Positions 35,651 to 49,962 of a stretch of 64,000 nucleotides of DNA are shown here, piece after piece (position 1 is the first letter of the stretch; every line of letters starts with the position of its first letter). The position numbers and the translations under genes were made by a program. Where the stretch lies: NCBI GenBank assembly GCA_028284765.1, contig JANQRA010000003.1, forward strand, positions 208,500 through 272,499, in the 5' to 3' direction. The notes beneath the pieces are model-generated. The model saw nothing but the letters and a program-made list of their open reading frames with translations, was not told the DNA's origin and did no database searches. Source of the stretch: Acidimicrobiia bacterium (GTDB taxonomy: Bacteria > Actinomycetota > Acidimicrobiia > Spongiisociales > ZC4RG35).

Positions 35651-36388
35651 ATGAATATCGCTGACCTAGAAGGACGGACCTACGGGCCCAGGTCGTGGAC
35701 CGTGAACGCCGATGCTGTCGCCGCCTACGAGTCTTTGACCGGGGCAGACGGCAAAGGCTTCGCCCCACCTGGTTTCGCAGCTGCGGCGCTCTTTGCCGTG
35801 GCGCCTGAACTCTTGGCCGAGCTCTACGAGATGTCTGTGATCCACGGAGAGCAGTCGTTTGCATGGAACGGTCCAATCGAGATCGGTCATACCTATACCG
35901 TGACCGGGGAAGTGAGCCGGGTCCGGGAGCGAGGTGGTGTCCACTTTGTGACCTTCGAGGTCGAGGCCGGAGACGTTCTGACCGCTAAAGCCCTGTTTCT
36001 GGTGTCTGGCGACCAGCCCGCCGCAGGTTCCGCGGACGCAGGGGGAGTGGAGCCGGCTGTCGGCGATAAGGGTGGGCCGGAGGAAGGGCAACGCTCTGCC
36101 TCCAGGGCAGACCTGGTCCGCTATGCCGCTGCCACCAGAGACTGGAACCCGGTTCACTGGGACCACGAGGCCGCGACCGACGCAGGTTTCCCGGGTGTGG
36201 TGGTCCACGGTCTGCTTCAGGCCGGGTGGGCATTGGCAGCTTTCGACGGTGATCCAGCGTCGACCCGAATTCGCTTCCGCAACCCACTGAAACCGGCACA
36301 TCCGGTCGATGTGAAGGTCAATGGCAACAACGTGACCTTGTCCGACGTTGACACCGAGTATCTGACTGCCACCATCACGGTTGCGTGA
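35651..36388 (+). CDS. fused HadA/HadB-like (R)-hydratase with two hot-dog domains
   Basis: The 245-residue protein joins two hot-dog halves. Residues 1-125 resemble the FAS1-like dehydratase N-domain (HGEQSFAWNGPIEIGHTYTV, about 74-93). A Gly/Ala/Glu linker follows, and residues 145-245 carry the MaoC hydratase motif with RDWNPVHWDHEAATDAGFPG and VVHGLLQAGW. In mycobacteria hadA and hadB, which dehydrate 3-hydroxyacyl-ACP, follow rpmG, so both family and position agree. The hydratase catalytic Asp and His are present in the C-half. It overlaps the sigma-factor gene by 4 nt. Confidence 0.8.
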   Translation: MNIADLEGRTYGPRSWTVNADAVAAYESLTGADGKGFAPPGFAAAALFAVAPELLAELYEMSVIHGEQSFAWNGPIEIGHTYTVTGEVSRVRERGGVHFVTFEVEAGDVLTAKALFLVSGDQPAAGSADAGGVEPAVGDKGGPEEGQRSASRADLVRYAAATRDWNPVHWDHEAATDAGFPGVVVHGLLQAGWALAAFDGDPASTRIRFRNPLKPAHPVDVKVNGNNVTLSDVDTEYLTATITVA

Positions 36389-36963
36389 GTAACCCGTCAG
36401 ACCGATCCGAGGTCGAATCCGATAGAGAGCTGGAGTTGATCTCCAGAGCTCAGCAGGGCGATCGCTCTGCGTTTGCAGCGTTGGTGAGACTCCACCAGGA
36501 CGAGGTGTTCACGTTGGCCCGAAGACTTGTCGGTGACCCGCATCTGGCGTCAGATGTGGCCCAAGAGACGTTGATTCGCGCTTGGAAGTCGATTGGGCGT
36601 TTTCGTGGTGACGCCAAGCTCTCGACTTGGCTGTATCGCATAACCGTCAACACGGCCTGGACGCACAAAGAGCGGGCCAAGAAACATCGTGCAACTCCGA
36701 TCGATGACCACATCGAGCTCGCGGCACCTGACGGCGTGGACAGTCCTGAGTTCGTGGGCGAGGTGGTCGAGTTACGGGGTCGACTCAAATCCGCTCTCGA
36801 TCGATTGCCAGACGGTCAGAGGAATGTGGTTGTCATGAAGGACATCTACGGGTGGTCCCACGCCGAGATCGCCGAGGCGATGGACATTTCTGTGACCGCC
36901 GCCAAGGTTCGGCTCCACCGGGCGCGAGCGCGGCTTGCCCGAGACCTGGAGGAGTCGGCGTGA
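36385..36963 (+). CDS. ECF RNA polymerase sigma factor
   Basis: The 192-residue protein has region 2 (FAALVRLHQDEVFTLARRLV, DVAQETLIRAWKSIGRFRGD with the core-binding and -10 segments, LSTWLYRITVNTAW) and region 4 (LDRLPDGQRNVVVMKDIYGWSHAEIAEAMDIS). It is an SigE/RpoE-like ECF factor. GTG overlaps the upstream stop, and the anti-sigma-like gene follows with a 4-nt overlap, the usual sigma/anti-sigma arrangement. Confidence 0.92.
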   Translation: MSNPSDRSEVESDRELELISRAQQGDRSAFAALVRLHQDEVFTLARRLVGDPHLASDVAQETLIRAWKSIGRFRGDAKLSTWLYRITVNTAWTHKERAKKHRATPIDDHIELAAPDGVDSPEFVGEVVELRGRLKSALDRLPDGQRNVVVMKDIYGWSHAEIAEAMDISVTAAKVRLHRARARLARDLEESA

Positions 36964-37338: not shown

Positions 37339-37842
37339 TTGGGTATCAAAGAAGGTCTTCTCGCACTCCTGGCCGACGGCCCCCGTCATGGCTACCAGCT
37401 CAAGGTCGATCTAGAAACGGCAACGGCTGACGCCATTCCCGTGAATGTCGGACAGGTTTACAGCACCCTGCAGCGCCTCGAACGCGATGGTCTTGTTTCC
37501 AAGGGTGGGGTGGATGATGAGGGGCGCGACGTCTACGAGATCACCGCTCCAGGAGGTGATGTCTTGCGCGATTGGCTCAACAGTCCCGTCGACCTGGCGG
37601 CTGCCGGCCGGGACGAGATCTCGATGAAGGTTCTGATCGCGATCTTCACCGGAGGCCTGGATCCCAAGGCAGTGATTGAGGGTCAGCGGACAGCAACTAT
37701 GGGACTGCTGCAGGATCTGACCCGTTTCAGGGCAGAGGAGGAGGATGCCGATGTCGCATGGCATCTTCATCTCGACAGGTTGATCTATTCCGCTGAAGCC
37801 GAGCTCAAGTGGCTCGACCGCGTCGAGGAGCGTGTTCGGTGA
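37339..37842 (+). CDS. PadR-family transcriptional regulator
   Basis: The 167-residue protein begins at a TTG. Residues 1-75 form the winged helix (EGLLALLADGPRHGYQLKVDLE, VNVGQVYSTLQRLERDGLV, VYEITAPGGDVLRDWL) and the C-terminal half is the helical dimerisation domain of the Vir type. PadR proteins repress efflux or detoxification genes and are released by drugs or phenolics. It overlaps the ABC ATPase gene by 4 nt, so it probably controls that exporter and itself through the dyads upstream. Confidence 0.9.
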   Translation: MGIKEGLLALLADGPRHGYQLKVDLETATADAIPVNVGQVYSTLQRLERDGLVSKGGVDDEGRDVYEITAPGGDVLRDWLNSPVDLAAAGRDEISMKVLIAIFTGGLDPKAVIEGQRTATMGLLQDLTRFRAEEEDADVAWHLHLDRLIYSAEAELKWLDRVEERVR

Positions 37843-38555
37843 GCGAACCAGTCTTGAAGATGCGGCGTATCGGAAAGACCCATGGCAAAGGTGCGCAACG
37901 AGTCGACGCTCTGGTGGACGTCAACCTCGATGTCGCCGCAGGCGAGTTCGTCGCCATCACCGGTCGAAGCGGGTCAGGCAAGACGACTTTGCTCAACATC
38001 GCCGGAGCTCTGGATGAGCCGACTACCGGGAACGTCTCGGTTGTTGGTCACGACCTCGGAGACCTTTCGAACAAAGAGCTGGCCCGAACTCGACGTGTCG
38101 CCGTTGGATACGTGTTCCAACAGTTCAACTTGCTCCCGGCACTCACCGCGGCCGAGAACATCTCGCTTCCACTGGAGCTCGACGGCATGACGACCGCAGA
38201 AGCACGGGAGTTGGCCGAGGTGGCGCTGAGTGAGGTGGGTCTCGACGGGATGGGCGATCGATATCCCGATCAGCTGTCGGGTGGTGAGCAGCAACGCGTT
38301 GCCATCGCCCGGGGCCTCGTGGGTCCGCGTTCACTGCTGCTTGCAGACGAGCCGACGGGAGCTCTGGATGAAGCCACCGGCGAGTCGGTGCTCAAGCTTT
38401 TGCGTGAGCGTTGTGAAGCCGGTGCGTCCGCCTTGATGGTCACTCATGAGCCCGCGTTTGCCGCTTGGGCCGATCGCGTCGTGCGACTTCGGGACGGCCA
38501 GATCGAGGAGATTTCCGTCAGGTCGTTCGCCACTTCAAACGCGGATCTCTTCTGA
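37839..38555 (+). CDS. MacB/LolD-type ABC transporter ATP-binding protein
   Basis: From the GTG at 37839 the ATPase is 238 residues, with Walker [13 protein letters not shown], the Q-loop [13 protein letters not shown] typical of the MacB/LolD group, signature [15 protein letters not shown] and Walker [13 protein letters not shown]. It pairs with the FtsX-like permease whose ATG overlaps its stop by one base. Such systems push lipids, peptides or drugs mechanically rather than by alternating access. PadR control suggests drug or stress export. Confidence 0.93.
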
Positions 38556-41230: not shown

Positions 41231-41497
41231 TCAGTCGTGGGCGTACTTGGTGACGCCCTCCCCGTACTTCTCCTCGAATAGCCTTGCTACCTCGCCTTCT
41301 TCGGCGTGTCGGCCGGTCTCTTTCTTCGAGTAGAGCATTTCGCCGTCGACAACGACATCGAAGACCCCGCTAGAGCCTTGGATGAGGGTCGTTGACTCAA
41401 CGACGTGCTGGTAGTCATGCAGTATCCCGTTGACCGCGCTCACGGCGCGGGGGAGATAGTTTCAAGGAACGCAGTAGGTGATCTCGATCTTGTGCAT
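41231..41497 (-). CDS. SelW/Rdx-family selenoprotein (CxxU), read through an in-frame UGA
   Basis: From the ATG at 41495-41497 the frame reads MHKIEITYCVP, then TGA at 41462-41464, then NYLPRAVSAVNG and on to KYAHD, 88 residues with Sec at 12. SelW/Rdx thioredoxin-fold proteins have exactly C-x-x-C/U at this point, with Y before and NYLPRA-like residues after, and the VFDVVVDGEMLYSKKETGR segment is the second family signature. So the UGA replaces the second redox Cys. An ordinary gene caller would start at a GTG at 41443 and lose the active site. A SECIS-like hairpin follows the UGA. It lies 28 nt after a cupredoxin gene. A broken gene is the alternative, but nothing else is damaged. Confidence 0.88.
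41434..41464 (-). promoter_or_regulatory. UGA selenocysteine codon and SECIS-like hairpin of the SelW-like gene
   Basis: The UGA is at 41462-41464 on the minus strand. After 11 nt, CCGCGC (41450-41445) pairs with GCGCGG (41439-41434) around CGTGA. Spacing, a short stem and a G at the second loop position fit bacterial SECIS elements recognised by SelB. Confidence 0.75.
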
Positions 41498-41525
41498 GGC
41501 TGAAACGATAGCCCTGCTCATCTGT

Positions 41526-42035
41526 TCAAGCTTCGAGGACGACAACCTTGACCGATCCGAGGACGTGGGCCGAGCAGATGCCTATCGACTCACCCGACTC
41601 CGAGAATCGTTGCCGGAGGCTTTCGCCCTCACCGACGGTGAATGGGCCAACGAAGTGCAGTTGGTCATCGTCGTTGACGATCTCGATCGTCTCACCAACT
41701 CGAACTTCTAAGACCTCGGGCAGGATGTTGATCTCTTCTCCAGCTTCGATCGATGCGCCGGCTCCCGCAGGAATGACGAATTGGTGGTCTGCTTCGCCGG
41801 AGGAGTCATCGTCGACCGACAGACTTCCAACTGGGCCCCACCAAACGAACGACACCGGCCCGTCTGCTTTGATCTCACCGGTGTCTCCACCGCTCAGTGC
41901 TCCTGGCACGGTGGCAAGGGTTGGGACAGATTGAGTCTCGGCGTCTCCCCGGCTCCATGTCAGGGCGGCTGCCACGACCAGGACTGTCAGCAGGGCGGCG
42001 AAAACGACGATTGTTCGGCGATGGGCGGTGATCAT
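41526..42035 (-). CDS. membrane-anchored cupredoxin-like protein
   Basis: The 169-residue protein has an N-terminal anchor (VVFAALLTVLVVAAALTW, about 10-27), an acidic linker and a C-terminal cupredoxin half: VLEVRVGETIEIVNDDDQLHFVG with His127, and GICSAHVLG with Cys154 and His157. The fourth, axial Met of plastocyanin-type sites is not where expected, so a His-Cys-His site with another axial ligand or none is inferred. It probably handles electrons or copper outside the membrane. The SelW-like gene follows by 28 nt, so the two are likely one transcript. Confidence 0.72.
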   Translation of the reverse strand: MITAHRRTIVVFAALLTVLVVAAALTWSRGDAETQSVPTLATVPGALSGGDTGEIKADGPVSFVWWGPVGSLSVDDDSSGEADHQFVIPAGAGASIEAGEEINILPEVLEVRVGETIEIVNDDDQLHFVGPFTVGEGESLRQRFSESGESIGICSAHVLGSVKVVVLEA

Positions 42036-49071: not shown

Positions 49072-49962
49072 CTAGCTGTTTGAGTCGGACATGATCTCGT
49101 CCAGCGCTTGGTAGGCCTGGCCAGCAAAGGTCGGATTGGTTTTCGAGTAGTAGGGAATGGCTGCCACCGCCATGTGAAGAGCCCAGCCTTTTGCCCGCAT
49201 CCACTCTGGATCACTGGCAGCGACCGCTTCTCTGAATGACACACGACTGTCCGCATCGAAGAGCCACCATGCAGCGAGAAGGTCGGCACTTGGGTCGCCG
49301 ACAGTGCATCCCTCCCAATCGATGACGGCTACCAAACGTCCTTCGCGAGCCAGGAGATTGTCGCCCCGAAGGTCACTGTGCAGCCAGGCTGGTGGGCCAT
49401 CATGATCTCCAGCAGCGAGGCATGTCTCCCAGGTTTCGATGATTCGGCTTCGGTCGATGCCCTCCGGCAATTGGTTGACCCACTCACGCAGATCTTCATC
49501 CACCTCCGACAAGCTGCCAGCCCGGTAACTGCCACCGTCCGGCAGGGCATCGGTCGGCACCTTGCGCAGGGTGGTAACGAAATCAGCGAGGGCGTTTGCC
49601 GTGACATGCAGGTCGCCCACAGTTCCCTGGTTGGCTGCCGTGCCTTCGATCCAAGACACGACGGACCAGTGGGACGGGTATGCCTCGGTCGGACTGCCGA
49701 GGCCAAGATGGCGAGAGATCTCGAGTGGCAGCCGTCCTTCGAACCTCGGGAGGAGGCGAGCCTCTCGGAGCGGTCCAGGCGAGAACTCAGACGACCGCGG
49801 GAGTCGCAACAGCTTGTCGTCACCCAACCGATAGAGGACGTTGACCGTCCCAGAGGAGCGGAGTCGATCGACTGGCAAGTCGGACCACATCGGAAACTGC
49901 TCGGCCAGCAGCCGTCGAATCGTTTGCTCGTCGATTTGGAACTCGCCGGGATGCAGAGCCAT
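49072..49962 (-). CDS. aminoglycoside-phosphotransferase-like kinase
   Basis: The 296-residue protein has the kinase core of the APH family: LLRLPRSSEFSPGPLREARLLPRF around the ATP site, the catalytic loop HSDLRGDNLL at 195-204 and the metal-binding VIDWEGCTVGDPSADLLAAWW with Asp215. The family includes antibiotic and small-metabolite kinases, so drug resistance should not be assumed. It is convergent with the membrane protein gene 3 nt away. Confidence 0.85.
   Translation of the reverse strand: MALHPGEFQIDEQTIRRLLAEQFPMWSDLPVDRLRSSGTVNVLYRLGDDKLLRLPRSSEFSPGPLREARLLPRFEGRLPLEISRHLGLGSPTEAYPSHWSVVSWIEGTAANQGTVGDLHVTANALADFVTTLRKVPTDALPDGGSYRAGSLSEVDEDLREWVNQLPEGIDRSRIIETWETCLAAGDHDGPPAWLHSDLRGDNLLAREGRLVAVIDWEGCTVGDPSADLLAAWWLFDADSRVSFREAVAASDPEWMRAKGWALHMAVAAIPYYSKTNPTFAGQAYQALDEIMSDSNS

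Follow-up and report, generated by a model that had tools for sequence, protein, structure and literature searches.

An in-frame UGA at codon 12 of a minus-strand frame raises the question of whether this codon ends translation or is read as selenocysteine (Sec) in a small redox protein. The frame lies in the window, a 64,000-nucleotide stretch of the genome of an Acidimicrobiia bacterium (2.9 Mb, 98.11% complete), and the features at this locus are collected in Table 1. With TGA translated as U, the frame begins with MHKIEITYCVPU and ends with KYAHD, which places a C9-V-P-U12 (CxxU) motif at the N-terminal redox loop. This bears out the earlier note, which had read C9 and, with UGA at the second redox Cys, U12 from the frame 41497..41231; the downstream family signature that it had recognised, VFDVVVDGEMLYSKKE, is likewise intact in the read-through translation. 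Its claim that the usual gene call is truncated and lacks the active site also appears well supported; translation table 11 yielded a 70-aa product from the GTG at 41443. We also asked which of the 70 main ORFs in the window can be extended in frame through an upstream TGA, a test that is blind to Sec codons close to a C terminus, and the selW-like gene was the sole candidate (1 of 70). An in-frame ATG at 41521 is a possible alternative start, and inspection by eye revealed no clear Shine-Dalgarno sequence ahead of this ATG or that at 41497.

Table 1. Features at the selW-like locus (positions in the window)
Feature	Position	Strand	Remarks
Putative selW-like selenoprotein gene	41497..41231	minus	ATG 41497, 88 residues, predicted Sec12, stop TGA 41233-41231; from translation, profile matches and alignment with relatives
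In-frame UGA, codon 12, putatively encoding Sec in the C-V-P-U redox motif	41464-41462	minus	TGA at the aligned position in 158 of the 159 loci read
SECIS-like upper stem-loop, 6 bp	41434..41450	minus	Loop CGUGA (41444-41440); begins at the 12th base past the UGA; five or all six pairs form in 130 of 144 non-redundant relatives
Extended hairpin with 4-bp lower stem	41425..41454	minus	Minimum-energy fold of the window copy; lower part not common to all relatives
70-aa ORF by table 11, GTG start	41231..41443	minus	Starts at the GUG within the SECIS loop
Upstream gene, 169 aa, possibly co-transcribed	41526..42035	minus	Ends 28 nt ahead of the ATG; cupredoxin-like by eye only

The full frame matched the Pfam Rdx profile (PF10262) over residues 3-73 (E=5.2e-17, 62.3 bits, cut-off 22.6) and TIGR02174 CXXU_selWTH (50.8 bits, cut-off 34.2), and the narrower equivalog NF041051 SelTWH_Campy, a Campylobacter model, was not reached (80.4 bits versus a cut-off of 88). 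The 70-aa ORF alone scored only 34.1 bits against Rdx versus 62.3 bits for the full frame; therefore, the residues that the GTG start leaves out, before and after the UGA alike, carry family signal. When a 15-row profile was compared with solved structures, the best match was 2fa8 (E=4.7e-18). The solved Rdx-family structures (2fa8, Atu0228; 3dex, SAV_2001; 2oka; 2p0g) resemble the window gene, with a profile match to 2fa8 across the whole domain, but 2fa8 carries CxxC in the alignment where the window gene has CxxU. Animal selenoprotein W, which has a CxxU motif, was also matched by the profile (2npb, E=2e-06) but is more distant from the window gene. In eukaryotes, the SECIS element is found in the 3′ UTR instead (PMC1088965). 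Compared with the bacterial SelW-like or SELENOW-like proteins (PF10262; TIGR02174), nothing essential differs: size, CxxU motif, downstream signature and a SECIS directly after the UGA are all as in the window gene. The nearest named relatives of the source genome are Acidimicrobiales MAGs.

The UGA is conserved far beyond this genome. Among relatives from genome_contigs, it occurred at the same place in 20 of 20 loci (Acidimicrobiia, Anaerolineae, Deltaproteobacteria, Kroppenstedtia and others). A search of 345 genomes of the class detected relatives in 138 genomes (141 matches), with the TGA in 139 matches and none in two. One of these two (G148) is a fragment at a contig end, with a match that starts past the Sec site, and the other (G004) is a full-length CxxC form, in whose genome a SelA search found no match. 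For codon counts, 159 loci were read, comprising the window, all 20 genome_contigs loci and 138 found by the class search, leaving out the window's own row among the 141 matches and the contig-end fragments G148:C10 and G156:C82. The second redox codon was TGA in 158 loci, three of them UxxU rows read from the printed frame, and TGC in one (G004). The codons ahead of the UGA evolve as coding sequence, with 512, 200 and 1405 differences at codon positions 1, 2 and 3 in 707 closer pairs, and the frame stays open past the UGA in relatives, where frame-destroying changes were looked for. If the UGA were a true stop, the locus would be a pseudogene, or its true product would be the 70-aa protein that begins at GTG 41443 and lacks the active site. 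This reading, to which table 11 and the remaining Rdx match of the short ORF lend some support, is very improbable given that the UGA and both its flanks are conserved across the class and the upstream codons are under coding constraint; the Sec machinery described below is a further point against it, and the conservation already contradicts it.

Cysteine forms were found in a wider phylum sample, in which 57 of 396 genomes gave a match (58 matches, 18 of them stop-free). All 16 stop-free relatives that were aligned (L200-L215; G602 and G676 left out) have CxxC in the same columns, so that Cys at position 12, which the earlier note had looked to for support, does occur in relatives; two TGA rows from the same sample (L216, L217) are CxxU. 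Some genomes with SelA also harbour Cys forms (L200, L201, L214 and L215), so that these forms are not restricted to genomes lacking Sec. L200 and L201 come from different genomes of the same genus; a CxxC SelW alongside SelA in both likely reflects a change from Sec to Cys or the reverse.

All four components of Sec decoding that the earlier note had proposed to search for are present in the source genome. A tRNA-Sec was detected on contig C19 (74.7 bits; tRNA-SeC with anticodon tca by ARAGORN), and profile searches identified SelB (326.5 bits, cut-off 242.25) and SelA (416.7 bits, cut-off 267.9), encoded by adjacent genes at the start of contig C11. SelD (384.3 bits) is encoded outside the window on the window's own contig, C6. 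This selD (L014 1501-2427) has an in-frame UGA of its own, in HGAGUACK. Across the class, 124 of the 136 genomes that carry the UGA form gave a strong SelA match (E<1e-60), versus 104 of the 209 others (Fisher p=7e-17, which overstates the association because the genomes are related). The 12 exceptions, eight with no SelA match and four with a weak or partial one, likely reflect genome incompleteness, as all 12 are at most 90% complete. In family f12, genus g61, genomes of about 1 Mb retain the UGA-form SelW, and most retain SelA.

A bacterial SECIS is a hairpin directly 3′ of the UGA with a G in a small apical loop (PMC1088965). The hairpin described by the earlier note (CCGCGC, CGTGA, GCGCGG) was found as claimed. 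Numbering from the U of the UGA (41464) as 1, the upper stem consists of pairs 15-31 to 20-26, and the loop of C21, G22, U23, G24 and A25. G22 falls at 41443, where the table 11 GTG starts; the default call thus begins within the SECIS loop, and its start is very probably a false one that removes the active site of the selW-like gene. By itself, the window copy was only modestly exceptional against synonymous shuffles (z -1.98; 2.8% of shuffles equally low). We then compared 144 relatives, that is, the 155 TGA loci with a C..U motif minus 11 duplicates, leaving out the three UxxU rows and the Cys row. Five or all six pairs of the upper stem formed at the exact spacing in 130 of them and did not in 14. 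When the 3′ side was slid by -3, -2, -1, +1, +2 and +3 nt, this level of pairing was obtained in 0, 9, 0, 0, 0 and 0 of the 144, respectively; in several distant relatives, the hairpin is displaced by a few bases. Compensatory changes were observed at pair 18-28 (U-A in 91, C-G in 39) and pair 15-31 (C-G in 95, U-A in 25), pair 20-26 was invariant, and serine codons at position 20 were AGY in 88 of 88 cases. Against within-gene synonymous permutation, folding energy averaged z -1.30 in the 144 relatives (128 negative; p<0.05 for 34 taken singly), compared with -0.12 to -0.26 in four control windows further along. With a different null and 21 sequences, the contrast had been less marked in an earlier run (-1.02 versus -0.45 to -0.77). 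The hairpin is conserved at a fixed distance after the UGA and is stronger than synonymous codon choice explains.

The UGA could also be read as an amino acid other than Sec, by near-cognate suppression or a reassigned code. However, the selW-like gene and its upstream neighbour both end in UGA, the in-frame UGA falls on the column of the redox Cys in relatives, tRNA-Sec, SelA, SelB and SelD are encoded in the genome, and the SECIS-like hairpin is under selection, so that such a decoding is hardly credible. We consider the window gene almost certainly a SelW-like selenoprotein gene, in which UGA 41464-41462 would be read as Sec at C9-x-x-U12. This assignment draws on family, motif, hairpin conservation and a full set of Sec machinery in the same genome, all read from the sequence, and the true selenoprotein proposed in the earlier note appears well supported by that machinery, the conserved open frame and the CxxC relatives. 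Translation would start at ATG 41497, or possibly at 41521; the hairpin 3′ of the UGA is predicted to bind SelB loaded with Sec-tRNA-Sec, Sec would be inserted instead of termination, and the second UGA, 41233-41231, would terminate. The predicted product is a small thioredoxin-like Rdx-family redox protein with the active site C9-x-x-U12, in which a Cys-Sec bond may form during turnover, and its role may be that of a thiol-dependent reductase.

The neighbourhood appears not to be shared. A Pfam search with the upstream 169-aa protein gave no match, and its gene was not next to SelW in the relatives compared. Of the window ORFs lying from 33 to 50 kb, only the SelW gene recurred as such at the loci around relatives; ORFs 36385-36963, 37809-38555 and 49072-49962 were rejected as conserved neighbours, as their matches were weak and lay at other places relative to SelW.

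A different form of the redox site was found in another genus of the class, g121. SelW was present in 20 of its 22 genomes, with UGA at both redox positions (YUVPU) in 16 of the 20 (L180-L195) and CxxU in the other four. After masking of the motif, the 16 UxxU genes still formed one clade in the tree (support 0.945). SelA was detected in all six g121 genomes tested (UxxU: G322, G252, G320 and G361; CxxU: G181 and G242), and in the UxxU genes, the 42 bases past the second UGA fold into one weak hairpin near the usual place. These data somewhat favour a conversion of a CxxU SelW to a double-Sec UxxU form in this genus; the active site would presumably be a diselenide, and a single SECIS might serve both UGAs, which are six bases apart. 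SELENOW-like is given only as CxxU in the tables of two prokaryotic reviews (PMC9312934, PMC13188914), and a UxxU form of SELENOW has been published for amphioxus and Ostreococcus (PMC7539508); in the literature text searched for UxxU, nothing bacterial was found for SelW.

SelW-like proteins outnumbered every other selenoprotein family in the Sargasso Sea set (PMC1088965), were listed in Symbiobacterium, then placed in Actinobacteria (PMC1794560), and 427 CxxU genes have been reported (PMC2398784). Very few or no Cys homologues were described in Sec-containing organisms (PMC1794560), a scarcity that fits our counts. Our search of literature text found nothing evidently about Sec in Acidimicrobiia and nothing on selenoproteins in Actinomarina, and the searched text of a deep-Sep paper (PMC12013277) made no mention of SelW, SelT, Actino or Rdx. 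Given that SelW-like CxxU selenoproteins are long known and abundant in bacteria, the window gene would be an ordinary addition, and an easily mis-called one: it illustrates how ordinary gene finding can lose an active site to a probable false start within the SECIS loop. The class-wide set, with its nearly invariant Sec codon, offers a clean starting set from which the SECIS of this group could be modelled. The UxxU relatives offer a way to test whether two UGAs can be decoded by a single bacterial SECIS. If the double-Sec reading is true, the window gene would represent the usual condition in a lineage where replacement of the first redox Cys by Sec can be followed.
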